Source: Candidatus Aenigmatarchaeota archaeon
GTDB taxonomy: Archaea > Aenigmatarchaeota > Aenigmatarchaeia > CG10238-14 > SCSR01
Direction of reading: 5' to 3'
Length of the DNA stretch: 40,704 nucleotides
NCBI GenBank assembly: GCA_030615205.1
Contig: JAUWZS010000003.1
Span: forward strand, 1-40,704
The position numbers were made by a program, and so were the translations under genes. The notes under the pieces are model-generated. The model had not been told where the DNA came from. It saw nothing but the letters and a program-made list of their open reading frames with translations, and searched no databases. Below, one piece after another: positions 5,415 to 35,075 of this stretch. Position 1 is the stretch's first letter, and every line of letters starts with the position of its first letter.

Positions 5415-6013
5415 CGTGGTTTTCGGATAAAGGTGTGGAAATTAGCAAGGAAGATCTCCATCATATTCATACTGAGGTTAGAAATGAGAGAAGATTCTGG
5501 TACGATAAAATTGTTGCTTACGTGAATTTCTATTCTACGATAATCTCTGCTTTATTGTCTGGTTTTATCCTAGGCTTAACCCAGGTGAACAATTTAGGAC
5601 AATTCAAATATGCTTTGCTCATCATACCAATAATATCCACAATCCTATCTAGATTCGCTAGAAGAACTATTCGACTTATCTTTAGACAGTTTATTGAGAA
5701 CACTGGGGTAATGGCTAAATTAGAGTTGATAATGGGTATGTATGGCCCCATAAAGTCAAAGAATATTCCTACCAATATCTTATTTCCTCGGGATGAGACT
5801 ATAAATCCTATTAGACACTACAGTAATCTTCTACGTTTTGAAAAGATGGAAGAGTTTGTAGAAGATGAGCTTAAACAACCTGATAGGATCTTCAAAATGA
5901 AACAACGGGTATTCTTAATACTAGAAATATTGTCAATAATAATGTTAGTAGGTGCTCTAGTCCTAATGATATGGGGGACATCGGGAACGTTGCCTTTGCA
6001 AAACATTTCCTAA
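5411..6013 (+). CDS. Four-helix membrane protein of the Nudix/radical SAM operon
   Basis: 200 residues. The start ATG 5411 overlaps the radical SAM stop (ATGA) and has an AAAGGAAA ribosome site; the longer ORF start at 5381 is less likely. Two hydrophobic helices lie at about residues 36-78 and one or two at about 165-190, with a soluble loop between. An amphipathic N-terminus (EVRNERRFWYDKIVAYVNF) recalls small SLATT-like two-helix effector proteins, but I cannot assign it firmly. The C-terminus (LPLQNIS) is encoded inside module B1, so it may have been extended at cassette joining. Confidence 0.65.
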   Translation: MTWFSDKGVEISKEDLHHIHTEVRNERRFWYDKIVAYVNFYSTIISALLSGFILGLTQVNNLGQFKYALLIIPIISTILSRFARRTIRLIFRQFIENTGVMAKLELIMGMYGPIKSKNIPTNILFPRDETINPIRHYSNLLRFEKMEEFVEDELKQPDRIFKMKQRVFLILEILSIIMLVGALVLMIWGTSGTLPLQNIS

Positions 6014-6087
6014 GACGTGTCAACACATTTTTTGATAAGAAGTCCATATCCCTCCAAACTTAACAAAAAGCGAATTTCGTATATAAT
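6003..6087. repeat. Intergenic module B, copy 1 (short)
   Basis: Begins ACATTTCCTAAGACGTGTCAACAC like the copies at 9653 and 16372, but lacks their middle. It ends in the common promoter cartridge (6060-6087), followed by TTATGCC, an R'-like element. Confidence 0.75.
6060..6087 (+). promoter_or_regulatory. Sigma70-type promoter in module B1
   Basis: TTAACA (6060-6065), 16-bp spacer, TATAAT (6082-6087), then TTGAC and TTATGCC. Drives the membrane protein gene at 6159. Confidence 0.75.
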
Positions 6088-6158
6088 TGACTTATGCCCA
6101 ATTGAGCTTGCCCAAAAATCTGGAATATTTGTCAGAACTATTCTAATAGGAGTATATT

Positions 6159-6794
6159 ATGAGCAATAATGCAGAACTAAGTAAGTATGGTATCTCAATG
6201 ACATTTGAAAAAATTCTAGCTCATAATATTCCAGGGGTATTTTTAGCTGTAGTATTATTTATGCTTTTGGATATGATTGTAGAAGAAAAGATTTTTGAAT
6301 ATGTAGTGAACTCTTTGGGGTTAGGAATGGTTTCGTTACTTGTGGTTATATTGATTTATTTGGGCTTCCTTTTTGGACTTATTATTGATGAGCTGCATCA
6401 TGTTCTTTTGGAAGAAAAAGTCTATTATCCCACTGCGAAAAAGAAAGGCAAAGAGGTAACGTTCAAAGATCTTGACGGAAATGAATGTACGGAAAGCTAT
6501 TATCTTCCTTTAATGGGTCTTGATCTTTACAAGTACAATCTTAAACATTTTTATAGTTATTCCGAATTTGATTCCAATATTTCACTCGTTCTCTTGCCGA
6601 CCTCAGTAATATTTCCCTTATTCATTAATTACTATTATTCGGCGTCAAAACCAATTTTGTGGGTCGTCGGAATAGCCATTTTTGTATTAGCAATTGGTAT
6701 GATATATCTCGGCTATACAGCATTCTGTGACTATTACTCAGCATTCAACAATACTCTTCGAGGAGTTCTTAAGAAGCGGGAGATCGAGAGGTAA
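6159..6794 (+). CDS. Membrane protein, about four transmembrane helices
   Basis: 211 residues, not recognised. Hydrophobic segments lie at about residues 25-42, 52-76, 140-158 and 165-190. A soluble loop of roughly 60 residues between helices 2 and 3 starts with IIDELHHVLLEEK. The start is ATG 6159 with AGGAG 7 bp upstream. It is a single-gene cassette: a B module with promoter precedes it, and an attC-like site (6812-6896) begins 18 bp after its stop. The loop between paired helices suggests an integral membrane sensor or effector; no catalytic motif is visible. Confidence 0.7.
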   Translation: MSNNAELSKYGISMTFEKILAHNIPGVFLAVVLFMLLDMIVEEKIFEYVVNSLGLGMVSLLVVILIYLGFLFGLIIDELHHVLLEEKVYYPTAKKKGKEVTFKDLDGNECTESYYLPLMGLDLYKYNLKHFYSYSEFDSNISLVLLPTSVIFPLFINYYYSASKPILWVVGIAIFVLAIGMIYLGYTAFCDYYSAFNNTLRGVLKKREIER

Positions 6795-6811
6795 AGCGCA
6801 AACTCAACTAC

Positions 6812-6896
6812 GTCCAACGACAGGAGACGAAAGGGAAATCAGAGATTCCCCCCCAAATTGCCTTCGGCAACTTCTTTTCCCCGTAAAACGTTGTGC
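6812..6896. repeat. attC-like recombination site
   Basis: R'' GTCCAAC (6812-6818) and R' GTTGTGC (6890-6896) are near-complementary ends of an 85-bp imperfect palindrome. An inner hairpin is present (GGGAAATC..GATTCCCC), plus the TGCCTTCGGCA stem shared with module A. This matches the size and end sequences of integron attC sites. Confidence 0.65.
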
Positions 6897-6965
6897 GAAA
6901 TGCTCACTTCAGCCACAAAATACAAAAACAAATAAACATATAATATTATGAAAGAAGGTGAAAAA

Positions 6966-7169: not shown

Positions 7170-7189
7170 GCATCCTTCGTCGCACTATC

Positions 7190-7330
7190 ACCTAGCAGCG
7201 GACAAAAGGGAAATCAAAGATTTCCCCAAATTACCTTCGGCAACTTCTTTTATCCGCAAAACGAAATGAGAGATGACACAAAGTTCGTATACATGCTCCA
7301 AACTTAACAAAAGGAATCTTCGTATATAAT
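7190..7330. repeat. Intergenic module A, copy 2
   Basis: Contains a degenerate R'' (ACCTAGC), a long hairpin (GCGGACAAAAG..CTTTTATCCGC enclosing GGAAATC..GATTTCC), the shared AAAACGAAATGAGAGATGAC segment, and the promoter at 7304-7330. Confidence 0.8.
7304..7330 (+). promoter_or_regulatory. Sigma70-type promoter in module A2
   Basis: TTAACA (7304-7309), 15-bp spacer, TATAAT (7325-7330). Followed by TTAGCTG, in the place where other modules carry R'. Confidence 0.75.
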
Positions 7331-7360
7331 CCAATTAGCTGAAATACAAGAGTTATATTA

Positions 7361-8302
7361 ATGAAAATATACGATAGCGTAGATAAATACTTAAAAGAGA
7401 AGATAAACAAAGATTATTGGATAAACGTCGTTGTGGAGGAAGAAGCATGTTCTTACACAATAATGAGTCTGAGACATAGAGTCAGAGGTAGAACAGAGGA
7501 TGGAATTTTTTTAATACACTTCTTTAATAAGCTGGCGGACTGTCATCACAGTGTTCATCTAGATGGAACGTCCCATACAAAAATTAGAAAGAATAAGAAA
7601 GACGAAGAAAGAAAACTAATGGAACATAAACTACCAAATCTCTTAACAGTAGATAGGCCTATACAAATATTTTCTGGGGCTATGAATCTATATAATGTAC
7701 GAGAATATTACAATGAAAGTCCAATTAGAAATATTGACAGATATTGTAAACATCCGGATCAGGTAATAACTATTAATAGGAAATATTCTGAACCAGATAG
7801 TCTATTATTTTCTGTAATTGTTCTTCCCAAAGGGAGTTCTGATGTTCCATCTATTCATTTTGGGAATCCAAAAATTTTTGTCTTTAATCTTCTAAGTCCA
7901 CCAATAGCTATAGTATTAGGTTATGAAGCCTTACCCATGAATAGGTCGAATGATAAAGAATATAAGGCATACAAAAGAATAGAGTTTGTCAGACAGATAT
8001 CTAATCCAGATAAACTTTGGGCAGAATTTGAGCCTAAGTTATCTGAGGATGGGAGAAAACTTAAGATACCGCAATGGACTTTTATATGCAAAAGCCAGAA
8101 ATATAGTATGCCGGCCTTGGAGTTAGAACTAAAAGAAAATAGCAGATTAATTATTGGAGCATTCAATGGAGAAGATTACTATCATTATGACCTCATAGGC
8201 GCTTCTATAAAACCATTTGATAGAAATGGGCCAATAGCTCCTATAATAGTATGGACTCAGGAAGATACTGTATATGTATTGCGTCATATTAAAGAGGAGT
8301 AA
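7361..8302 (+). CDS. Hypothetical cassette protein
   Basis: 313 residues, not recognised. ATG 7361 lies about 24 nt after the predicted transcription start, with only a weak ribosome site. No signal peptide or membrane segment. The C-terminal half is rich in beta-strand patterns (LELELKENSRLIIGAFNGED). The N-terminal part has scattered Cys and His (DCHHSVHLDGTSH) that could bind metal, but no known motif is complete. It is a single gene between two A modules. Base composition is A/T-rich like its neighbours. Confidence 0.55.
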   Translation: MKIYDSVDKYLKEKINKDYWINVVVEEEACSYTIMSLRHRVRGRTEDGIFLIHFFNKLADCHHSVHLDGTSHTKIRKNKKDEERKLMEHKLPNLLTVDRPIQIFSGAMNLYNVREYYNESPIRNIDRYCKHPDQVITINRKYSEPDSLLFSVIVLPKGSSDVPSIHFGNPKIFVFNLLSPPIAIVLGYEALPMNRSNDKEYKAYKRIEFVRQISNPDKLWAEFEPKLSEDGRKLKIPQWTFICKSQKYSMPALELELKENSRLIIGAFNGEDYYHYDLIGASIKPFDRNGPIAPIIVWTQEDTVYVLRHIKEE

Positions 8303-8344
8303 GAAAGAACCTTTAAATTTAATAGCACTTCAGCTAATAACATG

Positions 8345-8474
8345 TTTGTGGTTCGCTTCACTCACCCAAATTCTCCTTCGGTAACTTCTTTTATCCGCAA
8401 AACGAAATGAGAGATGGCACGAACTTCGTATATATCCTCCCCAATTTTGAGCAAAAGTGAATTTTGTATATAAT
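8345..8474. repeat. Intergenic module A, copy 3
   Basis: Shares CACCCAAATTCTCCTTCGG, CTTCTTTTATCCGCAAAACG, AAATGAGAGATG and the promoter cartridge with the other A modules. Confidence 0.8.
8447..8474 (+). promoter_or_regulatory. Sigma70-type promoter in module A3
   Basis: -35 TTGAGC (8447-8452; the cartridge is mutated here from TTAACA), 16-bp spacer, TATAAT (8469-8474). Confidence 0.65.
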
Positions 8475-8552
8475 TGACTTGCACGCCATTCTGGTCAAAA
8501 GATCTCAAATGGGATATATAAAATTCAATATATAGTTATCAAAAGGGTCAAT

Positions 8553-9656
8553 ATGAATAAAGTTATAATTCTCGGTGCAGGTGCCACATTCGGAGCTCAT
8601 CCTATAAACCCATGTTTAAAACCACCGCTTCTAAAAGACTTGCCGAATATTTTGCATTATGACTTTCTTTCATTGAATAGAAGTAAAGATGGTCCTCTTT
8701 TTAATAAAGGATTTAATGAATTGGTCGATTTAACTAACACTAGAAATGATATTGAAAAATTCTTTACTGTACTTTTCCTTCTTGAAATGCTTTCTGCAGA
8801 CATAAACCCAAGCTATGTTTTTATGCACGACGATGAGATCAAGGATCTATTATCAAATCATCAGAAGTTAAAAAAGTATTTCATAAATGACTCCGAAATG
8901 GAAATTGCTAAAATAATTCTTAAATATTATCTGTCCAATGAAAAAGAAGCATTAATGGTTTGTCCCAGAAATTTAAGAACATTTTTCCAAAGTTCTTTAA
9001 GAGAATATATGTTTCAATCACTGACAAATTGTTATTGCAAATATCATAGCAAAGCGTTTGGTGGCTTGGATGATACTGACTCGGTAATTAATTTTAATTA
9101 TGATGAAGTAGCTGATTTTACACTATTTACATTAGATAAATTAGGTATTGGTTCCTTTGAAAACCTTGGTTTTGATGGTATAGTATTTCCTAAAAAGAAA
9201 CAACCTGCGTGCTGCGTGAAATACCTCAAAATGCATGGGTCATTTAATTGGTGGACAAATATTGAATCAAAAGAGGTCTTTTATAATTTAATTTCTGAAG
9301 CAAGTTCTGAGAAACATTTAGGTAATACATTTTTCCCAATTGTTCTTCCCTTCTTAAGTAAGAAAATATTTTACCAAACTTATAGTATCCTAAAGAAGCA
9401 TCTCTACCAATTCGAAAACTTACTAGAAGAATCGAAGGAAATACTCCTTATCGGTAAAACATTTATGAATTCTGATGAAGAATTGTCAAGAATCATTAAA
9501 ACACATTCTCTAAGTAACAAGAAAAAACTAATTATCATTAACCCAAAAATTGCTTCATCAGAGTTTATTCGCTTCCATGAAAAATTATTCAATGCAGAAT
9601 ATATTAAAGGTTGGAAAAGGTTATATGACTACTTTATTGACCAGAACGGCGTATAA
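8553..9656 (+). CDS. SIR2-like NAD-binding domain protein (first of three)
   Basis: 367 residues. An N-terminal nucleotide-binding loop VIILGAGATFGAH (residues 4-16) is followed by NFNYDE (about 180), KMHGSFNWW (about 226-234) and a late LLIGKTFMNSDEEL strand. This is the order seen in SIR2-like proteins of bacterial defence systems, some of which deplete NAD+ on phage infection. Start ATG 8553 with AAAGGG upstream. The stop codon lies inside a GTATAAC R''-like element (9651-9657), so the gene ends at the recombination site. It is a single-gene cassette; a partner sensor is not evident. Confidence 0.75.
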   Translation: MNKVIILGAGATFGAHPINPCLKPPLLKDLPNILHYDFLSLNRSKDGPLFNKGFNELVDLTNTRNDIEKFFTVLFLLEMLSADINPSYVFMHDDEIKDLLSNHQKLKKYFINDSEMEIAKIILKYYLSNEKEALMVCPRNLRTFFQSSLREYMFQSLTNCYCKYHSKAFGGLDDTDSVINFNYDEVADFTLFTLDKLGIGSFENLGFDGIVFPKKKQPACCVKYLKMHGSFNWWTNIESKEVFYNLISEASSEKHLGNTFFPIVLPFLSKKIFYQTYSILKKHLYQFENLLEESKEILLIGKTFMNSDEELSRIIKTHSLSNKKKLIIINPKIASSEFIRFHEKLFNAEYIKGWKRLYDYFIDQNGV

Positions 9657-9825
9657 CATTTCCTAAGACGTCGCAACACTTTTTTAAGAATGAGGTCTCA
9701 GTTATTAGGATACGTTTCCCCATTTTATATCAATAATCGCTCTGCTAATTAAGTTGCCTGAAAAAATCTCCACCAGACCTTCCAGACTTAACAAAAGGCG
9801 AATTTCGTATATATTTGAGTTGTGC
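9651..9825. repeat. Intergenic module B, copy 2, attC-like
   Basis: Starts at GTATAAC (R''-like) and ends at GTTGTGC (R', 9819-9825). The interior matches module B3 (ATTTCCTAAGACG, TTAAGAAT, AGGTCTCAGTTAT, AGGATACGTTT). It contains the promoter at 9788-9815. Confidence 0.8.
9788..9815 (+). promoter_or_regulatory. Sigma70-type promoter in module B2
   Basis: TTAACA (9788-9793), 16-bp spacer, TATATT (9810-9815), then TTGA and GTTGTGC. Confidence 0.7.
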
Positions 9826-9903
9826 GGAATGCAGTGACACTACTGCTATCGCCCACACATCACGCGGTCATATCTTTCACCGAGCAGTTCGAGGGCTTCT
9901 TAG

Positions 9904-10839: not shown

Positions 10840-10924
10840 CAGAAGGTCTACCCGCACTTCGCATAACATCGTGTTTCTCGTTTCGCTCAAACCCACCTAT
10901 GGTGGGATTCAGATATGCTCAAAT

Positions 10925-11152
10925 CTATGAAAATCATGTTCTCAAGCAACAATTTTTAAGGTCTAATATATTGACCACTAATCTATTCATCCTGACTTGA
11001 CGGATATTGTGTTTATACGATCAAGCCGGGGTCGAGTAATAAATGTTATAACCTGCCAGAGCTAATCTCAACCTCCTTTTTTCTTGTATTATCTCTCTTT
11101 CAAGTATATAATAAATCAAAAGGGGTGGATTTTCATAATATAAACGTTAGAT
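10925..11152. repeat. Intergenic module C, copy 1
   Basis: About 225 bp highly similar to 14635-14857: GAAAATCAT, CTAATCTATTCATCCTGACTT, GGATATTGTGTTTATACG, CCAGAGCTAATCTC. It ends CATAATATAAAC followed by GTTAGAT, an R' element (11146-11152). Includes a promoter. Confidence 0.85.
11084..11112 (+). promoter_or_regulatory. Sigma70-type promoter in module C1
   Basis: TTGTAT (11084-11089), 17-bp spacer, TATAAT (11107-11112). Conserved in C2. Confidence 0.6.
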
Positions 11153-12339: not shown

Positions 12340-12483
12340 GCAACTTCGGCTACCGTGGGCTTTCCAGTTCACTTCGCTCGCCCAAATACTTCGCACTTCG
12401 CAAAGCCCGTGAACGAAATGACAGGCGACACAAACTTCGTATATATCCTCCAAACTTAACAAAAAGCGAATTTCGTATAGAAT
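12340..12483. repeat. Intergenic module A, copy 4
   Basis: Nested inverted repeats GGGCTTT..AAAGCCC and GTTCAC..GTGAAC enclose TTCGCTCG and ACTTCGCACTTCGC. The shared ATGACAG.CGACACAAACTTCG segment and the promoter cartridge follow. Confidence 0.75.
12456..12483 (+). promoter_or_regulatory. Sigma70-type promoter in module A4
   Basis: TTAACA (12456-12461), 16-bp spacer, TAGAAT (12478-12483). Confidence 0.7.
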
Positions 12484-12527
12484 TGAGTGAACTGCCATTT
12501 CGGTGAGCAACAGACGGAGCAACGGAA

Positions 12528-13324: not shown

Positions 13325-13435
13325 TCCGCCAGAATCCACCGTCGGCAACTTCTTTCATCCGCAAAACCAAATGAGAGATGACATAAAGTTCGTAGACGGC
13401 TCCAAACTTAACAAAAAGCGAATTTCGCATATGAT
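13325..13435. repeat. Intergenic module A, copy 5
   Basis: Shares CGTCGGCAACTTCTTTCAT, CCGCAAAACCAAATGAGAG, ATGACATAAAGTTCGTA and the promoter cartridge. It is preceded at about 13290 by CAGCCAACATCAAACAAACG, an R''/L''-like start. Confidence 0.75.
13408..13435 (+). promoter_or_regulatory. Sigma70-type promoter in module A5
   Basis: TTAACA (13408-13413), 16-bp spacer, TATGAT (13430-13435). The in-frame ATG at 13435 starts inside this box, so it is not used. Confidence 0.7.
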
Positions 13436-13479
13436 TGATTTATCTGAAATTACCTACATGCAAACTATTGAAGGTGCCG

Positions 13480-14529: not shown

Positions 14530-14634
14530 TAGGAGGTGACTTCAGACAACACACCATATGCGCCTGGGCTTACCCCTTGCCCTTCGGAACATTGCTCTCT
14601 TTGGTCGCAACCTCACATACGCTGGAATCTACGA

Positions 14635-14857
14635 AAATCATTTCGTCAACAAACACTTTCTAAGATCTAGCACATTGGCCACTAATCTATTCATCCTGAC
14701 TTAATGGATATTGTGTTTATGCGGCCAGGTATAGGTTCAAGTAACAAATGTTGCAACTTACCAGAGCTAATCTCGATCTGCTTTTTTTCTTGTGCTATAT
14801 CTCTTTCAAGTATATAATAGACTAGAAGGGATGATTTTCATAATATAAACGTTAGAC
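14635..14857. repeat. Intergenic module C, copy 2
   Basis: Second copy of 10925-11152, ending in TAATATAAAC followed by GTTAGAC (R', 14851-14857), the classical integron core form GTTAGACGCC. It follows an attC-like stretch (14530-14630) with ACAACACACCATATGCGCC. Confidence 0.85.
14790..14818 (+). promoter_or_regulatory. Sigma70-type promoter in module C2
   Basis: TTGTGC (14790-14795), 17-bp spacer, TATAAT (14813-14818). Confidence 0.6.
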
Positions 14858-15100: not shown

Positions 15101-16327
15101 ATGTCGAAGTACTCCTTCCTGTGCTGGGACAGAATCAACGCAGGTGAATTTGAGCAACTTTGCCAAGCTATCCTAGGAAGCCTGGGCTTCGCAAATCTTG
15201 TTCGGATAGGTGGTTCAGGTGACAGGGGCAGGGATATAGTCTGTAATCTCACAATAAACGTGGGAAAGAATCTATCCTTCATGACAAATTGGGTAGTGCA
15301 GTGTAAGCATTATTGCTATAGCCCAACAGTCAGCAAGCTTAAGGATGACCTTACAAAGGCTCTTCAGCATGAGCCTGATTTTTGGCTCTTGATGACCTCT
15401 GCTTCTCCTCTCTCTCCGTCGGTTCATGATTGGCTTAGAGCGGTAGAGAAGAAACAATTCAGCTTTCGAATTTTGGTCATGGATGGCGTGGAGATTAGCC
15501 GCATAATACTGCAGCGACCTGTTCTTGCTCACGACATGATGGACCGGCTCTTCACAGACGACCGCCTTGAGACGAGACAGATTATGGCTCTGATGGGCAA
15601 GAGACACTATGACAAAGCGCTCACCACGATACAAGGGTTCCAGGGTCGAGCAACTCCAAGGATGGCGTATCTTGAGGCCTGTTGTAGGTCAATGCTGGCC
15701 CAGAGGTCTAAACAAAATCGCACTGAAAATGTAGAAAAAGCTTTTGCAGCCTTAAAGGAAGCGTTGGGAAGTGGTTACCTTACACAAATGAACCTCACCC
15801 TCGGCTGGCCCCCAGAGAAGGTTCTCTATGAAATCCAAAGCGACCCAGAACTGCAATTCCTGAAAGACCAAGACCTGTCATGTTTCATCAAAACCCTCGA
15901 GGCCTCTGGCTATGCTACAAGAGGTGAAGGTGGTGGATGTTTTGTGGCTGATACACCGATTCGCTTCCCAGAAGGAATTGAGAAGCCTATATCTTCAGTA
16001 GAAGTCGGGGACATTGTGGCAGTACCAAGCAGGCCTTCAAAAGGAGCATTTGTGATTGGAGTTTCTCATGTCAATGAGAATTGCGTTGTGTCAATCAATG
16101 ATAGAGTTTGGTGTTCCCTAAGCCAGAGCCTTCTTACGACTTGGGGTTGGAAAAGGGCTGTTGCACTTCAATACGGTGATATTCTCCTAGGGTATCCCAT
16201 AATAGAGCCCGTTGTGTCCCTACGGTACGAGCAAAACACCTATGAAGTGTATATGATTCGCTTGGCAGAAGAACATGTATTTTATGCCAGCGATTATATT
16301 GCTCACAATAAATTAATGATAGACTAA
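15101..16327 (+). CDS. Mrr-like nuclease, TPR-like linker and C-terminal Hint domain fusion
   Basis: 408 residues in three parts. Residues 8-135 form an Mrr-type restriction-like domain: FEQLCQAILGSLGF, GGSGDRGRDIV (Asp45) and VVQCKHY (Gln67, Lys69), the D-QxK form of PD-(D/E)XK. Residues about 160-275 are helical and TPR-like. Residues 280-403 look like a Hint (hedgehog/intein) domain: GGGCFVADTPI starting at Cys280, EKPISSVEVGDIV, GWKRAVALQYGDILL, and a terminal AHN at 401-403. The usual block B TxxH reads CSLSQ here, so self-cleavage may be impaired. A Hint domain at the C-terminus of a DNA-cutting enzyme could control its release. A single cassette after module C2. Confidence 0.75.
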   Translation: MSKYSFLCWDRINAGEFEQLCQAILGSLGFANLVRIGGSGDRGRDIVCNLTINVGKNLSFMTNWVVQCKHYCYSPTVSKLKDDLTKALQHEPDFWLLMTSASPLSPSVHDWLRAVEKKQFSFRILVMDGVEISRIILQRPVLAHDMMDRLFTDDRLETRQIMALMGKRHYDKALTTIQGFQGRATPRMAYLEACCRSMLAQRSKQNRTENVEKAFAALKEALGSGYLTQMNLTLGWPPEKVLYEIQSDPELQFLKDQDLSCFIKTLEASGYATRGEGGGCFVADTPIRFPEGIEKPISSVEVGDIVAVPSRPSKGAFVIGVSHVNENCVVSINDRVWCSLSQSLLTTWGWKRAVALQYGDILLGYPIIEPVVSLRYEQNTYEVYMIRLAEEHVFYASDYIAHNKLMID

Positions 16328-16368
16328 TATAAATAATTAAATCGTTCCTGGGGTTTTTTCGAGACAGC

Positions 16369-16632
16369 GCCTAACATTTCCTAAGGCGTGTCAACATATT
16401 TTTTAAGAATTAGGTCTCAGTTATAGGATACGTTTTCCCATTTTGTTTCAATTAATCGCTTTTGCTCGTTAAACTGCCTGCAAAAAATCTCTACCGACTC
16501 CTTAAATCGTCCTAGACCATGACAGATTCACAACCACTGAATTTTATCTTAATCCTCCTCCCAACGGTGGTGCAGGTCTGTACATGCCCCAGACTTAACA
16601 AAAAGCGAATTTCGTATATGATTGAGTTAGGT
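16369..16632. repeat. Intergenic module B, copy 3, between R'' and R'
   Basis: Starts GCCTAAC (16369-16375) after the CAGC leader typical of attC, and ends GTTAGGT (16626-16632). The interior matches B2 (TTTCCTAAGGCGTGTCAACA, TAGGTCTCAGTTAT, AGGATACGTTTTCCC), plus an extra stretch of about 85 bp. Contains the promoter at 16595-16622. Confidence 0.8.
16595..16622 (+). promoter_or_regulatory. Sigma70-type promoter in module B3
   Basis: TTAACA (16595-16600), 16-bp spacer, TATGAT (16617-16622), then TTGA and GTTAGGT. Confidence 0.75.
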
Positions 16633-16660
16633 GCAACTGGCAGGAAAAGGAGCAAAGATA

Positions 16661-18037
16661 ATGACTGAGCAATTTCAAAAGTTGCGTGTCTTTGTTGCAT
16701 CACCTAGAGATGTTGTAGAAGAAAGAAGACGCCTCTCACCAGTGGTCGAAGAACTCAATCGATCAGTTGCTAAAGACAAAGGATTAGCTCTGGAACTTAT
16801 ATGCTGGGAGACACATGCAACTCCTGATATGGGTAGGCCCCAAGAAATCATAAGTCGTCAAATAGGCCAATACGATATTTTCATCGGCATTATGTGGAAA
16901 CGTTTTGGCACACATACTGGACTGACTGAATCAGGTACACAAGAGGAATTCAACCTTGCTTATCGTTATTGGAAGAAGACGGGGCAGCCACGGATTATGT
17001 TCTATTTCAATCAAGCACCGTACACATTTAGGTCGATAGAAGAAGTGGAGCAGGTTCGGAAAGTTCTTGATTTCCGAAAGCAACTTGAGCAACACGGCCT
17101 AATTTGGGAATATAATGGCCCTGATGACTTTGAAAGAAAAGTGAGAGAACATTTAACATCAGTTGTTCAAGAATTGAAGAAACAGGACCTTGATTCAGCT
17201 AGTGAGGCTGTTTCTCTGGAATATACAACTGATCCAGTACTCGATTTGTTTAATACTGCTTATTCAGAGTGGAAGACGCACCATGTATATGCAAGCCGTG
17301 ATAGGTTAGAACTTTTTCTTCGAAATCGTGGTAAGATAGACCTTACTAATGATAATGTCAGATTCGTATTAGAGAGTTGGTTCAAATGCGAGTATTCACC
17401 CCAAGATCATGTTGCAGTCTATGATGACCAGCCAGTTATAGACATCTGTAAGGAAATTATCGAAAATGAGAAAGATGTAGAGCTTATCAATGGCGCAATA
17501 AAGATTCTTGGCAGCAAAAAGTCACAAGATTGTGCCGAAGTGCTTCTAAAGGTGGTCAAGAAAAGAGAAATTTATCAAGAGCCTAATAGAGAAACGGCCA
17601 TCACCCAGTTTTGGTTTTCGAGAATCAGAGAAGTTGAGTATGATCGAGTAGCCGATGTCTTGGCACAGGTGCTTGAAAACGATCCAAGCTACAAATTGAG
17701 AAAGGAAGCCGCATACACTCTTAGATACTATCCAAATGAGAGGACTATCACGGTTCTCGAAGCGGCTCTGAATGATTCGAGAAGTCATGTTCGCGCGAAT
17801 GCCGTGGATTCTTTGGCAAGCATTCAGAGTTCTTCAAGCATAAAACCATTATTGAATCTTTTAGACTCTGAAACATACAGCACCAAAATGAGAAAAAAGA
17901 TAGTATGGGCATTAGGTCGCTTCTCTAAGGATGAAAGAGTACGTAAGGTTTTACAATCGATTGCCACGGATGATCAAGAACATACAGACATCGTTCGAGA
18001 GGCTAGATGGAGCCTTAGCCAGCTTGACAATTTATGA
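16661..18037 (+). CDS. DUF4062 domain protein with C-terminal HEAT repeats
   Basis: 458 residues. ATG 16661 is preferred (AAAGGAG 8 bp upstream) over an in-frame GTG at 16631. Residues 5-110 match the DUF4062 pattern: KLRVFVASPRDVVEERRRL, CWETHATPDMGRPQEI, QYDIFIGIMWKRFG and TESGTQEEF. This TIR-like flavodoxin fold is often an N-terminal module of STAND/NLR-like defence proteins. Residues about 260-458 contain HEAT-type helical repeats (YKLRKEAAYTLRYY, SHVRANAVDSLASI, MRKKIVWALGRFS). No NTPase domain lies between, so it is a short effector-plus-scaffold form. A single cassette between B3 and A6. Confidence 0.75.
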   Translation: MTEQFQKLRVFVASPRDVVEERRRLSPVVEELNRSVAKDKGLALELICWETHATPDMGRPQEIISRQIGQYDIFIGIMWKRFGTHTGLTESGTQEEFNLAYRYWKKTGQPRIMFYFNQAPYTFRSIEEVEQVRKVLDFRKQLEQHGLIWEYNGPDDFERKVREHLTSVVQELKKQDLDSASEAVSLEYTTDPVLDLFNTAYSEWKTHHVYASRDRLELFLRNRGKIDLTNDNVRFVLESWFKCEYSPQDHVAVYDDQPVIDICKEIIENEKDVELINGAIKILGSKKSQDCAEVLLKVVKKREIYQEPNRETAITQFWFSRIREVEYDRVADVLAQVLENDPSYKLRKEAAYTLRYYPNERTITVLEAALNDSRSHVRANAVDSLASIQSSSSIKPLLNLLDSETYSTKMRKKIVWALGRFSKDERVRKVLQSIATDDQEHTDIVREARWSLSQLDNL

Positions 18038-18054: not shown

Positions 18055-18155
18055 GCCTAACAGCGGCCGCAAAACGTAATGAGAGATGACACAAAGTTCG
18101 TATATATCCCTCCAAACTTAACAAAAAGCGAATTTCGCATATGATTGAGTTAAGC
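18055..18155. repeat. attC-like module A, copy 6, containing a promoter
   Basis: R'' GCCTAAC (18055-18061) and R' GTTAAGC (18149-18155) bound 101 bp. The hairpin present in module A2 is collapsed here to AGCGGCCGC. Then come AAAACGTAATGAGAGATGAC and the promoter cartridge. This is the clearest case of a promoter lying between R'' and R'. Confidence 0.75.
18118..18145 (+). promoter_or_regulatory. Sigma70-type promoter in module A6
   Basis: TTAACA (18118-18123), 16-bp spacer, TATGAT (18140-18145), then TTGA and GTTAAGC. Confidence 0.75.
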
Positions 18156-18222: not shown

Positions 18223-19155
18223 ATGAGCGAAGAAATAAATGATGCCCTCAGGAGGTACGCAGAACGTGTGCAGTCTCTTAGGGATCAGTTTCAAAAATGG
18301 AATGAGGTGGAAGTGAAACGATACCTTATCGAGCCACTTTTGACTGCTTTGCTTTGGAACACTACCGACCCAAATTTCGTTCGTTACGAGTTTCCGGTGA
18401 CTATGGGATCTGAGACACGAAAGGTTGATTATGCGCTAATGTCTGGAGATACTCCAATTTGTGTTGTCGAAGTAAAAGCAGGAGAATTGGATGAGGTTGC
18501 AGCCCGGCAAGCACTAAGTTATGCTCGTAATCTCGATGTTCCGTGGGCGCTTGTAACAAACGGACAAAGGGTGTGTCTCTATGGCATTGAGTTCTACACG
18601 TCTGAAAATGTAATGAATGCTTTAGTAATGGACATAGAGATTTCTCCCGATAGTATTGATGCTTCTCTTGATTCTCTCAAGTATCTCACAAATGGAACAT
18701 TAGACTCAGAAGAAGTCTACAATGTATTCAAAGCCTTCAATGAACGTCGAGCACTTCTCGTCTTTTTGCAAAGCAAGAAGGATATCTTGGTTAAAGAAGT
18801 TATTGCTAAATGGATCGAAGAACACTGGGACAAAGGTTCTGTAAATGAGGCATCGCTTCTTGTATCTCTTGAGAGCGTGTTTGGGAGAATTGAAAGAGTT
18901 GAGAAGAAACTTGTCGAGAGACAAGCACCCACTACTCGTACTACTGTAGCCAGTGATTGGAAGTATAGGCGTGACCTTGGGACAGGTATTTTTGAATTGA
19001 AGGCAGATTCAGCCAAACGAATAAATGTTTCGTTATCTGGGCCTGAGGTGGAACGCCAATTGGAAAAATTGGGACTTCGTACCAGCACAACGAGTGCGTT
19101 TGGAGGATTTTACTGGAATCTCCGCAGAGAGGCGGGTCTCATAAAGAGGAGGTGA
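18223..19155 (+). CDS. HsdR N-terminal-like PD-(D/E)XK nuclease
   Basis: 310 residues. Residues 25-120 resemble the nuclease domain of type I restriction R subunits: EVKRYLIEPLLTALLW, KVDYALM (Asp69), CVVEVKAG (Glu83, Lys85) and QALSY (Gln96-Tyr100, the QxxxY motif). The helicase domains of HsdR are absent. The C-terminal 100 residues (WKYRRDLGTGIFELKADSA) are not recognised. ATG 18223 with an excellent GAGGAGGAG. As a free-standing nuclease it could be a defence effector; no methylase or specificity gene is nearby. It is followed by a clear attC-like site. Confidence 0.75.
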   Translation: MSEEINDALRRYAERVQSLRDQFQKWNEVEVKRYLIEPLLTALLWNTTDPNFVRYEFPVTMGSETRKVDYALMSGDTPICVVEVKAGELDEVAARQALSYARNLDVPWALVTNGQRVCLYGIEFYTSENVMNALVMDIEISPDSIDASLDSLKYLTNGTLDSEEVYNVFKAFNERRALLVFLQSKKDILVKEVIAKWIEEHWDKGSVNEASLLVSLESVFGRIERVEKKLVERQAPTTRTTVASDWKYRRDLGTGIFELKADSAKRINVSLSGPEVERQLEKLGLRTSTTSAFGGFYWNLRREAGLIKRR

Positions 19156-20225: not shown

Positions 20226-20264
20226 TGACTCGTCGAAAATTTTTATTGGTGGTCTACTCTATAA

Positions 20265-22124: not shown

Positions 22125-22125
22125 C

Positions 22126-22169: not shown

Positions 22170-22736
22170 TTAGTATGATGCCTACAAAAGATATCCATGA
22201 CTTCAATGCTAAGTATAAAGCAGCTCTGGAACAGGTTAAAAGATCGACGATATCTCAGAAGAATAAAGACTTGATCCTGGATTTTGACAGAACTTGCTTC
22301 CTCGAAGGATTGAGCAAACCAAGACGAATTAGGCTAGTCGGTTCCCTTGTTAGATTAGCAGAGCGCTACTTGGCAAAGGATTTTGATAAGGCGACAGAAA
22401 AAGACATTAAGAAAGCTGTTATGCAGATAGAGTCAAGAGAAGATTGTTCTGTTTGGACAAAGCATGGCTACAAAACTACCCTAAAGAAATTCTACAAATG
22501 GTCGGAGTATGGGGACAATTACAAGCAAAGGAATGATTACCCTAAGATTGTGAGCTGGATCAACGCCAACATCAAGAAAAAGGATAAGCCTCGGGTGCAA
22601 GCATCAGATATTCTCACGGAGAAAGAGATCAAGAAGCTCTGGAGTGAACCCCTGAAACTGGACAAAATGACTTAGAGTGGCTAGAGTATCTGACAGGGCC
22701 AGCAGATCCCCAAAAGGGGTTGAAAGGAGCCTGTGC

Positions 22737-23087
22737 ATGAGAAAGGCAAGAACCTTTACCAGCCAGTTCAAACGAGAAGTCGTGGAAGAGCTCCTCAGCG
22801 GAACCACCGGACCGGCCCAACTTGCCAGGAGATATAATCTTTCCTCCGGTCTTCTGTATCACTGGAAGAACCAGTATGTCCGAGGCAAACTCAATAATGA
22901 ACCTGCCGAGGAAGCTGCTCTTCGGGACCGTGTCAGCCAACTAGAACAGATACTGGGCAGACTCACCTTGGAGAATGAGTTTTTAAAAAAAGCTTTAGAG
23001 AACACCCTCAAGGAACAGAGAAAAAAAGAGAGTTCATTCATCTCCACCAGGGCCTCATCCCTAGTACCCAAAGGGGGTGTGAGCTAA
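22737..23087 (+). CDS. IS3-family transposase OrfA (helix-turn-helix)
   Basis: 116 residues from ATG 22737 (AAAGGAG upstream); an in-frame GTG at 22677 lacks a ribosome site. FKREVVEELLSG, QLARRYNLSSGLLYHWKNQY is the IS3 OrfA helix-turn-helix that binds the terminal repeats. A leucine-zipper-like coiled coil follows (VSQLEQILGRLTLENEFLKK), used for dimerisation. The stop overlaps the OrfB start by one base (TAATG), pointing to translational coupling rather than the usual -1 frameshift. Confidence 0.9.
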   Translation: MRKARTFTSQFKREVVEELLSGTTGPAQLARRYNLSSGLLYHWKNQYVRGKLNNEPAEEAALRDRVSQLEQILGRLTLENEFLKKALENTLKEQRKKESSFISTRASSLVPKGGVS

Positions 23088-23917
23088 TGAAGATCCCCCG
23101 CAGCACCTTCTATTATCAAGATAAAGAGAAGCCTTTCGAAGAGCTTAAAGCCGAGATAGATCTTGAGGATGAGACCGAGAAGATTTGCCTTAACTGGCCC
23201 CGCTACGGCTACCGACGGGTGACCAAACAGCTCCATCGAGAAGGCTGGAAAGTTAACCACAAGAGAGTTCTGAGAATGATGCGGGAAAATGATCTTCTCT
23301 GCCGAGTGAGAAGATGGGGAGTGAAAACTACCAACAGTAACCACTCACATCCGGTATTTCCCAATCTCATCCAGGATCTTCTCATCACCTCGATCAATCA
23401 GGTTTGGGTTTCGGATATCACCTACATTCGTCTGCCCACAGCATTTGTGTACCTGGCCGTCATTTTGGATCTCTACTCTCGACGGGTGATTGGATATCAT
23501 CTTTCCCGGCACCTGGATGCTACCCTTACCCTGAGGGCTCTACGTCTGGCGATAAGCGAGAGAGATCCTGCCTCCGGCTCTATTCACCATTCCGATCAGG
23601 GAGTACAGTACGCCTGCTCGGATTATGTTAAAGAGCTTCTGGAACATGGCTTTAAGATCAGCATGGCCCGACGGGGCAATCCCTATGACAATGCCGTCTG
23701 TGAGAGCTTTATCAAAACACTAAAGGATGAGGAGATCTACCTCTGGGAGTACAAAACCATGGAGGATGCCGAGAGGAGAATTTGCCATTTTATCAAGGAT
23801 GTGTATAATGAAAAGCGACTGCACTCATCATTGGGCTATTGCCCACCCAATGAGTTTGAGGAGCAGTTGCTGGATAAACAAAAACCAACTGTTCCCTCTC
23901 AGATTACTCTAACCTAA
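23087..23917 (+). CDS. IS3-family transposase OrfB (DDE integrase)
   Basis: 276 residues. An N-terminal helical region (NWPRYGYRRVTKQLHREGW) precedes the retroviral integrase-like core. Asp110 (WVSDITYI), Asp170 (HHSDQGVQY) and Glu206 (NAVCESFIKTLK) form the DD(35)E triad, with a Lys at 210. The end carries the usual YNEKRLHSSLGYCPP motif. All key residues are present, so catalytic activity is expected. Confidence 0.93.
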   Translation: MKIPRSTFYYQDKEKPFEELKAEIDLEDETEKICLNWPRYGYRRVTKQLHREGWKVNHKRVLRMMRENDLLCRVRRWGVKTTNSNHSHPVFPNLIQDLLITSINQVWVSDITYIRLPTAFVYLAVILDLYSRRVIGYHLSRHLDATLTLRALRLAISERDPASGSIHHSDQGVQYACSDYVKELLEHGFKISMARRGNPYDNAVCESFIKTLKDEEIYLWEYKTMEDAERRICHFIKDVYNEKRLHSSLGYCPPNEFEEQLLDKQKPTVPSQITLT

Positions 23918-24748
23918 TTTGTCCAACCATAGGGGTTCACCCCACTCATAGGTGTAGCAGAACATCCCAGGGATAAGGCATTCATTTCTATGTTATATGA
24001 GCTTGGTGCCAGAATTGGAGAGATAGGATCTTTGCAAATCAAGGATATTACAAGAGATAAGTATAGCTATATAGTCGATTTAAATGGTAAGACCGGACAT
24101 AGAACTCCCAGGATAGTTATGTCTGATCCTTACGTTACGGGCTGGCTTAATGTACATCCACTAAAATACAACCCTGAAGCTCCATTGTGGGTTATGACGG
24201 GGAACAGAGACAAGAATGAAAAGATGAAATACGGGACTTTCAGAGCACTTATTCTCAGACTGAGAAAGAAAGCTAAAATCAAAAAGAGGCTCTATCATCA
24301 TCTTCTCAGGCACACCAGAGTAACTCATCTTTTGATTAATAGACAAATAAGCGAGGCTCAAGCTAAGGTTTACTTTGGCTGGGTTCCCTCAAGTACTATG
24401 CTCGCTGAATATTCCCATCTTCTCTCAAGTGATGTGAACGATACTATTTTAGAAATTCATGGAATTAAGAAAACAAAGGAAAAGGAAAGTGTACTGAAGC
24501 CAAAGCAATGTCCATCGTGTAGCGCAATTAACTCTAAAGATGCTCTCTTTTGCCAGAAATGTAGCAAAGTCCTAGATGTGAAAACAGCAATAGAGCTTGA
24601 TGAAAAAAGGAAAAGCTCCGATGAGATAATAACTGCTTTAGCTAATAATCCAAAAAGCTTGAAGAAATTGGCCGAGATCTTGTCAGAGCTTGGCTTAGTG
24701 AAGAAACTGATGGAGATTTAAACGTGCAATGAGAGAATGTGTGAATCC

Positions 24749-26477: not shown

Positions 26478-26489
26478 GACGTACCTGAA

Positions 26490-29194: not shown

Positions 29195-29316
29195 TCTCAC
29201 ACACCAGGGCCCTCCAAACAGATTGACAACCACTAAAATTTACCTTAACTTATATCCAGAGGATGCTGTTAGGGAATTCCTGAGTAAGTGGTAGGTTCGT
29301 ATATGTCTTGTTAAGC
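29195..29316. repeat. Intergenic module E, copy 1
   Basis: CACACACCAGGGCCCTCCAAA, CAGATTGACA, ATCCAGAGGATGCTGTTAGG, TTCGTATATGTCTT. Ends at R' GTTAAGC (29310-29316). Similar copies at 31200, 32300, 33375 and 34965. Confidence 0.85.
29223..29251 (+). promoter_or_regulatory. Sigma70-type promoter in module E1
   Basis: TTGACA (29223-29228), 17-bp spacer, TAACTT (29246-29251). Confidence 0.7.
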
Positions 29317-30021: not shown

Positions 30022-30107
30022 GCCTAACATCATACAACACCAGATTGGTAGTTCACTTCGTCCACCCAAACCGCTTCGTGGCTTCGCCAATCTAGCAACG
30101 GTTAGGC
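30022..30107. repeat. attC-like recombination site (most symmetrical)
   Basis: 86 bp: R'' GCCTAAC (30022-30028) and R' GTTAGGC (30101-30107) are exact inverse complements, extending outward by three bases (TTC/GAA). Inner arms AGATTGG and CCAATCT are also complementary, around a loop with TTCGTCCACCC and GCTTCGTGGCTTCG. It looks like a textbook attC site. Confidence 0.8.
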
Positions 30108-30168
30108 GAACCTCTTGATTTTTGACAAGAGGACACGTGTCGTAAAAAATACAAAGGAGGAACAAATA

Positions 30169-31095
30169 ATGACTGTATTGAAGAATTTCTTGGCAATTCT
30201 GAGCATAGTTGCTATGCTTCTGGGTGTGACGGAGTCATGCCATTCAAATGAAGGCGAAAATATGGCTCTCTATGTTTCAATCAGAGGAGCGGTCAATATA
30301 CCCTCCGTAGAGGGTCAGATAAACAGGGTGCTGTTTGAAGGAGGTGGTTTCGGAACGCCTGATGAAAGATTCAGGATCACATTTGAGATGGAGGGTAAAA
30401 CTATGAATTATGGATTCTGGAATGCGGGCTCAGAGTGGGTGATAAAAGGAAAGGTCGATTATGCTGGCTGTCATTTTGAGGCGAATCCAAAGTTTCCGCT
30501 TTCCTTCAAGCTGACAGGAAAAGGTCTACGCTATCTTTCTGGAATTGGTAAAGTAAAATCAGCATCAGGCAAGGAGACTTCCTTCCCAGAAAAATCAGTT
30601 GAGCAATGGTTGCTAGTTTTGAGATCGTCAAAGGAAGTGGACAATAAGCAGGGAGCTGCCCAGGCCTTGGGGTATTTGTTTCGCGACCAAAAGAGCGGCC
30701 CCGAAATACCAAAAGTAATTGATGCTTTAAAAATCGGCCTAAAAGACAAGGCTTGGCAAGTTCGGCGAGACGCAGCTGCTTCTTTGGGTCAGATAGGAAG
30801 TGAAGATGCTTCTGATGCACTAGTTCCTTTGCTCTCGGACAATACTCAAGATTGGTGGGTGGCTGAAGTGGCAGCAGCAGCCTTGTTTAAGATAGGCCAC
30901 GGCTTGAGTACGTTGAGTATTCAGAAGATAGAAAACATGTTGGCTTCAAAGAACCCAAAAATGAGATTACTTGGTGTCCAAGCTCTTGCTGCTGGGGCTC
31001 ATTCGGCGGTAATGCTTCTGCAGGAAATGTTAAAGAACGAAAAGGACATTTCCGTAAAAGAAGCTGCTGAAAAGAGTATCGAGAGATTAAAGTAG
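30169..31095 (+). CDS. Lipoprotein-like HEAT-repeat protein
   Basis: 308 residues from ATG 30169 (AAAGGAGG 7 bp upstream); the ORF opens further upstream at 30115. The N-terminus is a signal peptide with a possible lipobox before Cys (LLGVTESC). Residues 25-125 are beta-rich and unrecognised. Residues 130-308 hold HEAT-type repeats (KQGAAQALGYLF, WQVRRDAAASLGQIGS, MRLLGVQALAAGA). Such repeats bind proteins. A possible promoter (TTGACA, 30122-30127) lies upstream. The cassette runs from R' 30101 to R'' 31105. Confidence 0.65.
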   Translation: MTVLKNFLAILSIVAMLLGVTESCHSNEGENMALYVSIRGAVNIPSVEGQINRVLFEGGGFGTPDERFRITFEMEGKTMNYGFWNAGSEWVIKGKVDYAGCHFEANPKFPLSFKLTGKGLRYLSGIGKVKSASGKETSFPEKSVEQWLLVLRSSKEVDNKQGAAQALGYLFRDQKSGPEIPKVIDALKIGLKDKAWQVRRDAAASLGQIGSEDASDALVPLLSDNTQDWWVAEVAAAALFKIGHGLSTLSIQKIENMLASKNPKMRLLGVQALAAGAHSAVMLLQEMLKNEKDISVKEAAEKSIERLK

Positions 31096-31104
31096 CAAAG
31101 GTTC

Positions 31105-31366
31105 GCCTAACACGCTGTTTATGGCTCACTTCGTTCGCTCAAGTGCTTCGCACTTCGCAAAGCTCCGAACCGCTAATCTAAAGACCTACCAGCCAATAGG
31201 TTAGGATAAATCCGGAAATAAGTCTTTAAAAAGGATTTCCGCCAGAGCCCTCCAAACAGATTGACAATGACTAAGATTTGGCTTACCTTATCTCCAGAAG
31301 GTGCCGTTAGGAATTTCTTGAACGCTTGGAACTTCGAACAGAGATACGCGTGCCTCGGTGTTATGC
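31105..31366. repeat. attC-like start plus intergenic module E, copy 2
   Basis: R'' GCCTAAC (31105-31111), a hairpin-rich stretch (CACTTCGTTCGCTC, AAGTGCTTCGCACTTCGC), then module E from about 31200 (AGAGCCCTCCAAACAG). Ends at R' GTTATGC (31360-31366). The -10 here is TACCTT. Confidence 0.75.
31261..31289 (+). promoter_or_regulatory. Sigma70-type promoter in module E2
   Basis: TTGACA (31261-31266), 17-bp spacer, TACCTT (31284-31289). Confidence 0.6.
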
Positions 31367-32253: not shown

Positions 32254-32299
32254 AGTAGATGACCGACCATAACCGATATAATCAAAAAACCAACCTCCT

Positions 32300-32418
32300 C
32301 CACCAGGGCCCTCCAGACAGATTGACAAGCGCTGAAATTTGTCTTAACTTATCGCTAGAGGATGCTATCAGAGAATCTTTGAATAGGTGGTAGGTAGGTT
32401 CGTGTATACTCGTTAAGC
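32300..32418. repeat. Intergenic module E, copy 3
   Basis: CACCAGGGCCCTCCAGACAG, GCTAGAGGATGCTATCAGAG, GGTTCGTGTATACTC, ending at R' GTTAAGC (32412-32418). Confidence 0.85.
32322..32350 (+). promoter_or_regulatory. Sigma70-type promoter in module E3
   Basis: TTGACA (32322-32327), 17-bp spacer, TAACTT (32345-32350). Confidence 0.7.
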
Positions 32419-32430
32419 GACAAAGGTCAC

Positions 32431-33273: not shown

Positions 33274-33374
33274 CGTGAATAATTACTTGTTTTGTCCTAA
33301 CATTGCATTAGAGGGTGCCGCTGTGGCTTCATAAAGTATTGCAACCTAAAAACACACGAGCTAGTAAGTTTAAA

Positions 33375-33500
33375 TAAATAAACCGGGAAATAGACTCCAA
33401 AAAAGGAATCCCTCCCCAGAGCCCTCCAAACAGATTGACAAGAGCGGAAATTTGGGCTTAACTTCATTCCGCAGGATGCCGTTGAAAAGCTCTTGAATAA
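33375..33500. repeat. Intergenic module E, copy 4
   Basis: GGGAAATAGACTCCAAAAAAGG and CCAGAGCCCTCCAAACAG match the 31200 copy; GATGCCGTTGAAAAGCTC continues it. A clean R' is not visible; ATTATGC at 33532 is the nearest candidate. Confidence 0.8.
33435..33464 (+). promoter_or_regulatory. Sigma70-type promoter in module E4
   Basis: TTGACA (33435-33440), 18-bp spacer, TAACTT (33459-33464). Confidence 0.65.
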
Positions 33501-33555
33501 GCTACAGATCCAGTATCAAGACATTTGGCAGATTATGCCCCGAAAGGAGGTGAAA

Positions 33556-34752
33556 TTGCACAATTCAGCGAGAATCACATTTCTACTTGGCTCTGGTATT
33601 TCAATTCCCGCTGAAATACCATCAACCGAAGAGATAACAGAAACGGTTCTTTCCAGCAGGGACATTGTACGCCATACGAATGAGAATTACTACCTTTGGC
33701 CTGGCAAAGACATGGGTAAGGGATACGTCAAAAGAATACAGAACTTCTTGCGCAAACTGAAGTCCGAAATCGAGGATTATTGCAAGAGATTCAGGAGAGA
33801 TGCGAACTATGAGGATCTCTATTATGTGGTTAGTCAGATAAACGACAGTGAAATAGGAGAGTATCCGAATCCAGTCGTGCAACCTTTTATTAATAAAATC
33901 TTGCCGCAGGTCAAATCACTTCTTGCCGGCAAGGAAGGAGAAAGTAGAGAAAGATGGGAATTGCGTGAACTTGCTTACGAAACGACAGCTTTCATTCATG
34001 ATGTAGTATGGGACCTACTTTGCAAAGATCCGAGTAGACTGGACCATCTTAACGTTCTCAGAGATGCGTGCTTAGATGATGAGTTATCGAGAATCGATAT
34101 CTTTACTATCAACCACGATACGGTTTTGGAGCGCTGTCTGTTGGAGAATCAGATTGCCTTTACTGATGGTTTTGCTGAACCGGAAAATCAAATTCGATAC
34201 TGGAAGCCGGACTTGTTTGAAAAGAAATCTCGTAAAGTGGGGATATTCAAATTGCACGGCTCTGTGGATTGGTTCCGATTCAGACCCTATGGTGGAGATT
34301 GGTGTGATGAGTTAATAGGCATTCCTCCAAATGGGAATCCTGAGGATACAAGGAACCCTCAGGGCAAGAAACAGTTCGCCCCAGACAATCGGCCCATGAT
34401 ATTGATAGGCACGACCAACAAGATCCTGCAGTATGTAAAACCGATCTATGCTGATCTCTTGTCTCGGTTTTATTCTTCTCTGCAAGATTCTGGCCGCTTG
34501 GTAATATGCGGATATGGTTTCGGTGATAAAGAAATCAATACACAGATTAGTTATTGGGTTTTCTCTTCGCGTGATTTCAGAATCACTATAGTGGATACCG
34601 ATCCAGAAAAACTCAAGAGAAGAGCCACGGCCGCCATGCGCTCCGAATGGGATGAATGGATAAGAAGATACAAGTTGGCTATTATCAAAAAAGGGATAGA
34701 AAGAACTTCTTGGCCAGATATCAAAAGGACAAACTTTTGCAGCCAAAGGTAG
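33556..34752 (+). CDS. SIR2-like NAD-binding domain protein (third of three)
   Basis: 398 residues from a TTG at 33556, chosen because AAAGGAGG (33543-33550) lies 5 bp upstream; an earlier in-frame ATG (33535) overlaps that site. ITFLLGSGISIPAEIPS is the NAD loop. FTINHDTVLERCL (about 185-195), FKLHGSVDWFRF (about 230) and LVICGYGFGDKEIN (about 320) follow the SIR2-like order, with the likely catalytic His in KLHGS. These proteins can act as NAD+-consuming defence effectors. It is a single-gene cassette and its sequence is quite unlike the other two SIR2-like genes. Confidence 0.75.
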   Translation: MHNSARITFLLGSGISIPAEIPSTEEITETVLSSRDIVRHTNENYYLWPGKDMGKGYVKRIQNFLRKLKSEIEDYCKRFRRDANYEDLYYVVSQINDSEIGEYPNPVVQPFINKILPQVKSLLAGKEGESRERWELRELAYETTAFIHDVVWDLLCKDPSRLDHLNVLRDACLDDELSRIDIFTINHDTVLERCLLENQIAFTDGFAEPENQIRYWKPDLFEKKSRKVGIFKLHGSVDWFRFRPYGGDWCDELIGIPPNGNPEDTRNPQGKKQFAPDNRPMILIGTTNKILQYVKPIYADLLSRFYSSLQDSGRLVICGYGFGDKEINTQISYWVFSSRDFRITIVDTDPEKLKRRATAAMRSEWDEWIRRYKLAIIKKGIERTSWPDIKRTNFCSQR

Positions 34753-35075
34753 CAATAGTATAGCGTTGATCCAGCCAAGAAAACAGACATTGCGCGGTCC
34801 CGGAAAATAGGTCCAGCAGAGGGAAGATCAGAAGGCCGGGGAACCACACCGTGACCCACACACAAGCTCACCTTGTTTTTGGACGGGGCGAGTAAACGCT
34901 AAGCTTGCTGAAGTTAGCGACGCACTAGCGAACAAGTCTGGTCAATCCGCGGATGTGTTTCAAAAACAAGTCTCCCACACACCAGAGCCCTCCAAACAGA
35001 TTGACAACTACTGAAATCTGGCCTAGCCTGCGCGTAAAAGAGCTCATTTAGAGATTCTTGAATAAAGGGTGGGTC
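34753..35075. repeat. Inverted repeat region plus module E, copy 5
   Basis: TAGCGTT (34762) and AACGCTA (about 34896) form an inverted repeat spanning about 140 bp, the size of a long attC, but they do not match RYYYAAC. Module E follows from about 34965 (CAAGTCTCCCACACACCAG, AGCCCTCCAAACAGATTGAC). Confidence 0.6.
35001..35029 (+). promoter_or_regulatory. Sigma70-type promoter in module E5
   Basis: TTGACA (35001-35006), 17-bp spacer, TAGCCT (35024-35029), the weakest -10 of the E set. Confidence 0.5.

Follow-up and report, generated by a model that had tools for sequence, protein, structure and literature searches.

In integrons, a gene cassette starts with the R′ half and ends with the R″ half of one and the same attC site, that of the excised circle. 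Apart from the first few, most cassettes of large sedentary integrons are believed to be silent, and the expression of distal cassettes is an open question. Here we describe cassette arrays on a contig of 40,704 nt (JAUWZS010000003.1 of assembly GCA_030615205.1, filed as Candidatus Aenigmatarchaeota archaeon), the whole of which is called “the window” below. We interpret them as a cluster of attC sites lacking integron-integrases (CALIN), i.e. integron cassettes without an integrase, that belongs to a bacterium of the Aerophobota and in which promoters embedded in attC sites would relay expression along the array. The probability of this joint reading is estimated to be about two in three.

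Known CALIN and sedentary chromosomal arrays resemble the arrays of the window in the co-orientation of single-gene cassettes, the R″ and R′ boxes, attC cores that are similar within one genome, and cassette-specific ends. They differ in that most sites of the window hold a promoter element between the attC core and the crossover, and that the complementarity of the cassette ends reaches 16-20 nt, i.e. it stretches past the 7-nt boxes. In Vibrio and Treponema integrons, gene-less promoter cassettes drive the next cassette (PMC11014356, PMC6557892), and a transcription start has been mapped inside the attC of the Vibrio cassette F2 (PMC11014356). Such promoter cassettes are occasional, separate units with an attC of their own, whereas here one conserved promoter recurs in the sites of gene-bearing cassettes (PMC11014356, PMC6557892). 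The cassettes cmlA, qacE, and qnrVC1 have promoters in their 5′-untranslated regions (5′-UTRs) and are expressed independently of the integron's cassette promoter Pc, and a segment of the qacE 5′-UTR has been reused on other cassettes (PMC8876359). These promoters are located downstream of R′ and travel with their own gene, in contrast to the promoters described here, which are located upstream of R′, with the preceding cassette (PMC8876359). In archaeal integrons, attI directly follows intI (PMC9668308), and the same order is found behind an intI remnant on three sister contigs of the window, C18, C30, and C35. The window contig itself is, judged by composition and gene matches, bacterial despite its archaeal bin. 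In the open-access literature that was searched, we found no report of an array in which one promoter recurs in the attC sites.

The preliminary description had reported co-oriented, mostly single genes separated by repeated modules of five families (A to E), and self-blastn together with a repeat search indeed yielded these families, with 11, 5, 2, 3, and 2 copies in the window, respectively. One gene per cassette is usual; sometimes there are two or three. The extent proposed for the array, 6003-35075, does contain cassettes but had to be redrawn, as the repeats begin at 2.1 kb and the region at 21.7-29.1 kb is not a cassette array. It contains minus-strand genes and an archaeal-type integrase with a C-terminal zinc ribbon (22175-24721), which is split by an IS3 element at 22677-23917. 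Two co-oriented arrays were defined, at ~2.1-21.1 kb and at 29.2-35.7 kb; all sites and cassettes given below are on the forward (+) strand.

If both attC halves stem from the same circle, the start of a cassette should be complementary to its own end, and not to the end of the previous cassette. Start and end windows were scored across all cassette pairs, and the pairing was permuted. For 20 cassettes of the window, the pairing of own start and own end had z values of 4.1-5.4 (0-2 of 20,000 permutations), while pairing with the end of the previous cassette was at chance. The signal was gone when the start was moved by 10-100 nt (z of -3.0 to +2.3, compared to +4.2 unshifted). When five cassettes from C30 and C35 were added and the doubtful cassettes c1 and c2 were dropped, the z values for the resulting 23 cassettes were 5.9-8.3 (0/50,000), and the module A cassettes alone (n = 10) reached 4.6-5.5 (0/50,000). 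The starts of the latter were set by promoter alignment and not by complementarity, which places the crossover boundary directly 3′ of the promoter, and the promoter thus within the upstream cassette's attC.

Individual cassettes illustrate the pairing. Cassette c5 (7334-8338) has the start ATTAGCTGAA and the own end TTCAGCTAAT, with 10/10 positions paired, and the cassette that starts with TTATCTGAAATTACCT at the end of the site at 13338-13450 pairs with its own end AGGTGACTTCAGACAA. On the independent contig C35, a cassette behind an A promoter pairs TAGACACAATTCTATT with AATAGAACTGTGTCTA, and a C30 cassette pairs GTTTGGCGCCATGGCTTT with AAAGCCACGGCGCCAAAC. The same pairing was found for c17 (30101-31111; GTTAGGCGAACC and own end GGTTCGCCTAAC, 12/12 paired), which follows a promoterless site. 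On C18, C30, and C35, the C-terminal part of an integrase remains, interrupted by stops, and is followed by a conserved attI-like stretch, a combination found on these sister contigs and not in the window. The homology between C30 and C35 stops where the first cassette begins with its GTT, as expected of attI, and C18 is similar. Own-end pairing is near-perfect right after these junctions, and C30 and C35 also have classical promoterless attC sites. The complementarity at the predicted crossover and the attI/attC-like junctions support the view that the cassettes are of the integron type, as had been proposed from the sequence of the window. Loci with an integrase remnant and an attI-like junction are found at L029 8751-9146, L032 5050-5351, and L033 5332-4893, with a gene after each.

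Module A consists of TTAACA-16-TATAAT with the palindrome CGAATTTCG in the spacer between -35 and -10, and has 13 copies in its own bin (11 in the window, two on C35). Matches to sigma70-like promoters were scored out of 12, with a threshold of 9/12. Their total number is not above that in shuffled sequences (61 vs. 56 ± 9), but 10 of the 20 matches with scores of at least 10/12 in the first array belong to module A, and 10 of the 11 window copies reach at least 10/12 (-35/-10 hexamers at a spacing of 16-18 nt). The earlier claim that most modules carry such a promoter is borne out for A, while B is below the threshold, C has a poor -35 box, and three sites, at 6812, 19184, and 30022, are promoterless. 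At the A sites, the cassette starts right after the conserved sigma70-like promoter, which is physically located within the attC, between the stem-loop core and the crossover. This anatomy supports the proposal that the sites deliver expression, which probably extends to B and C, though not to the three promoterless sites. From these sequence features we infer that module A may be an active promoter and that A sites may be competent for recombination. The exact A pattern has no match in the GTDB genome contigs or IMG/VR, and among 145 genomes (the own bin and relatives) module A was not found beyond the own bin.

The clearest attC with an embedded promoter is at 18055-18155, with GCCTAAC, a collapsed core, the A promoter (18118-18145), and GTTAAGC. 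At 7180-7343, an attC with the L″/L′ arms GCGGACAAAAG/CTTTTATCCGC is followed by the A promoter and the boundary of c5, and at 8329-8488 an attC is followed by the promoter (8447-8474) and the boundary CTTGCACGCC. An AACG joint connects the promoter to the core CGTGGGCTTT/AAAGCCCGTG at 12345-12495 (promoter 12456-12483) and to another attC core at 20155-20240 (promoter 20198-20225), while the site at 13338-13450 consists of an attC right half and the promoter (13408-13435). D tails precede the promoter at 6046-6097 (TTAACA at 6060, TATAAT to 6087; then a degenerate R′, CTTATGC), at 9646-9830 (R″ GTATAAC, promoter 9788-9815, R′ GTTGTGCG), and at 16364-16634, where an undeleted relic of an integrase tail (16521-16567) lies before the promoter (16595-16622) and the R′ GTTAGGTGC. 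The promoterless sites are at 6806-6900 (GTCCAAC..GTTGTGC, boxes by sequence reading, fold z -1.5), 19184-19270 (GTCTAAC..GTTAAGC), and 30022-30107, which is canonical, with a perfect R″/R′ pair GCCTAAC..GTTAGGC.

The joints of module A also bear on the best-surviving alternative, i.e. that the array is a fossil of real cassettes, into which A and B were later inserted between attC core and cassette, with sites that have lost recombination and promoters that serve only to rescue the expression of stranded cassettes. The left edge of A takes three different positions at its joints with D tails, the R′ boxes upstream of A read GAAATGA instead of GTTRRRY, and A occurs outside cassettes in Aerophobota, as does B, in many places, so that the supposed specificity of both modules for attC does not hold. 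In addition, only remnants of integrases were found. These observations speak for a fossil. However, the right edges of A all coincide with the crossover, and A and the right half of an attC form one common unit of ~110 nt in five copies (at 7233, 8374, 13338, and twice in C35), as if a composite site had spread. The other A copies share the left edge AACG, the position of R′, and are joined to different attC cores; in all, A is joined to at least four attC cores. On balance, a fossil array appears to be unlikely, though it deserves serious consideration.

Three other readings of module A fit less well. It is unlike a gene-less promoter cassette with a complete attC of its own, because no attC core separates it from the R′ at which the next gene cassette begins; a stand-alone promoter cassette with a mini-attC (ACTTAAC...GTTAAGC) is made less likely by the start of the element, which lacks TTRRRY; and an origin from attI was rejected, as the attI-like stretches of C30 and C35 lack A.

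Several results weigh against the proposed integron array with promoters embedded in its attC sites. The preliminary description had expected a significant attC fold, but no bottom-strand hairpin is significant by itself (z of -2.1 for the best, and between -1.5 and +0.6 for the others), and covariation of L″ and L′ over the B copies is not significant (164/720). Neither the own bin nor any of 17 Aerophobota genomes yielded an intact intI above the TIGR02249 cut-off; only C-terminal remnants were found. A sites separate L′ from R′ by ~80 nt, which may disable IntI. The pairing is weak in c1-c3, c9, c14, c15, and c18-c20, and the boundaries of c18 and c20 were picked by eye, although they contribute little to the score. 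The boxes reported earlier, RYYYAAC after stops and GTTRRRY before genes, are present at several stops and genes, perfect at 30022-30107 and good at 19184-19270 and 18055-18155. Boxes with inner L″/L′ arms are present at 30022-30107 (perfect R″/R′), at 19184-19270, and in an attC on L032 near 6166-6270, and are degenerate at several A sites. The boxes are no more numerous than expected by chance (10 site pairs over the two strands, compared to 11.4 after shuffling), and therefore they were not used as evidence. As to the presence or absence of single cassettes in relatives, no syntenic array was found, and only C35 showed the same modules around different genes.

Dispersed (mobile) promoters, i.e. 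the same promoter before unrelated genes, are known in prokaryotes. Module B differs from these in its origin, the 3′ end of a gene for a recombinase, and in its additional location within recombination sites. It corresponds by homology to the final ~110 nt of an intact gene for a XerA-like recombinase of 175 aa (KKGISTRALQTLLGHDRLTTTEIYLNLSPEDAIREFLNKW*), relative to which the B copies share a deletion of 13-16 nt. The motif TTGACA, 17/18 nt, TAnnnT is present in B, and TTGACA-17-TAnnnT is retained while the remaining sequence decays; B looks like a promoter exapted from the recombinase gene. Promoters of this origin were not met in the open-access literature, though no search was aimed at that point. 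The five copies are at 29195-29316 (head of the second array, followed by R′ GTTAAGC), 31233-31366, 32265-32418 (R″ CCATAAC, the module inside the inverted repeat CCAACCTCCTCCACC/GGTGGTAGGTAGGTT, and R′ GTTAAGC), 33290-33500 (with R″ TCCTAAC), and 34973-35078. The D copies at 9646 and 16364 continue into this integrase tail, which is undeleted in the latter; judged by homology, B and D are both 3′ tails of the XerA-like integrase gene, and not a separate promoter class by origin. Module C (10858-11152 and 14540-14857) may be the tail of another recombinase, reading FLRSNILTTNLFILT, with a TATAAT box; its first copy has R″ CGCATAAC, L″/L′ ATGAAAATC/GATTTTCAT flanking this box, and the terminus AACGTTAGA. 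B and C elements fill the same interval between R″ and R′ as A. Family E (1965-2073 and 3355-3463; 109 nt, 86% identity) is located ~70-90 nt 5′ of the first two A promoters and is not attC-like.

B matches are present in 15 of the 17 Aerophobota genomes, with up to 58 in one, and mostly 5′ of genes where examined. Dispersed B-type hits before ordinary genes were seen in the genomes G153, G155, and G154 (e.g. L153, L154, L160). The genome-wide occurrence of promoters A and B could indicate an ordinary gene cluster with shared dispersed promoters, in which the complementarity of start and end would serve the pairing of mRNA 5′- and 3′-ends; a +1 start would indeed fall within the complementary stretch. 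As a negative control, genes behind dispersed B in other Aerophobota show no own-end pairing (z -1.3), which also led us to reject B as an attC in general. Together with the canonical attC at 30022-30107, the pairing right after the attI-like junctions, and the pairing of c17 at a promoterless site, this makes an ordinary cluster very improbable. Equally hard to sustain are units of one gene each that resemble transposons and have private terminal inverted repeats of 10-20 bp, accreted in tandem by a XerA-like recombinase that uses the 3′ end of its own gene as attachment site, as the long complementarity and the recurring integrase-gene tails between cassettes would suggest, because the boxes fit GTTRRRY/RYYYAAC, attC cores with L″/L′ are present, and the tail is absent at many junctions.

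The window corresponds to C19, a contig of a 1.17-Mb bin (G000), the large contigs of which are archaeal by their genes (Cbf5, and an archaeal-type ThrRS on C26). The tetranucleotide usage of the window differs from that of these contigs (r 0.54) and is similar to that of several small contigs of the bin, C28, C18, C20, and C35. The flanking gene 37566-38477 encodes a protein with 84% identity to one of an Aerophobetes metagenome-assembled genome (MAG), and its neighbor is 85% identical to the corresponding neighbor in the same MAG; the HU gene adjoining the second array has a 70% relative at the same position in another Aerophobota genome. Because of the composition, the archaeal genes on C26, these matches, and the confinement of module A to its own bin among the 145 genomes, the window is treated as an Aerophobota contig that, on this sequence evidence, is misbinned in an archaeal MAG. 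The bin mixes archaeal with Aerophobota-like contigs, its stated contamination being 0.65%. The split integrase is 38% identical to an integrase on C26, and archaeal-looking TATA boxes are present at 21790-22180 and ~25670 of the otherwise bacterial contig. A 47-bp direct repeat (98%), part of a tRNA-Leu gene, is found at 885-931, adjoined by an integrase remnant (877-1137, minus strand), and at 35926-35972, bounding the entire 35-kb region; the tRNA was the sole match of an Rfam scan. The arrays thus look to be part of an island, apparently inserted at tRNA-Leu, with further related repeats at 39904-40054 that point to a second insertion in tandem. Cassette genes that resemble defence genes are located at 8553-9656, 15101-16327, 16631-18037, 18223-19155, and 33493-34752 (domains SIR2, Mrr nuclease, DUF4062+HEAT, HSDR_N, and SIR2_2).

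In an array with promoters in its attC sites, the GTTRRRY-like R′ at the start of a cassette and the RYYYAAC-like R″ after its stop would join and close the attC in the circle, and the promoter would belong to the site of the upstream cassette and move with it. A cassette inserted at an A site would be transcribed from the resident promoter and would bring its own promoter for the next cassette, while in the free circle the promoter would be in front of its own gene. Expression would be relayed from site to site, and not start from a single Pc. The promoters may have been recruited from genome-dispersed elements, A from a chromosomal promoter and B from the 3′-terminal part of the gene for a XerA-like recombinase. 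It is a tentative proposal, and doubtful in its full extent, that this is a self-propagating relay integron, in which the recombination site doubles as a promoter that was taken over from the host's own promoters and from a recombinase gene's tail, so that a cassette would be active wherever it stands and, with each insertion, its neighbor would gain a promoter. If attC sites can carry a promoter, position effects would vanish and the site would determine expression. Stored cassettes, including the defence-like SIR2, Mrr-type nuclease, DUF4062/HEAT, and HSDR_N genes, would then be usable at once. The dispersed B elements suggest that a recombinase gene may have had its 3′ end exapted as a promoter, which spread through the genomes of Aerophobota.

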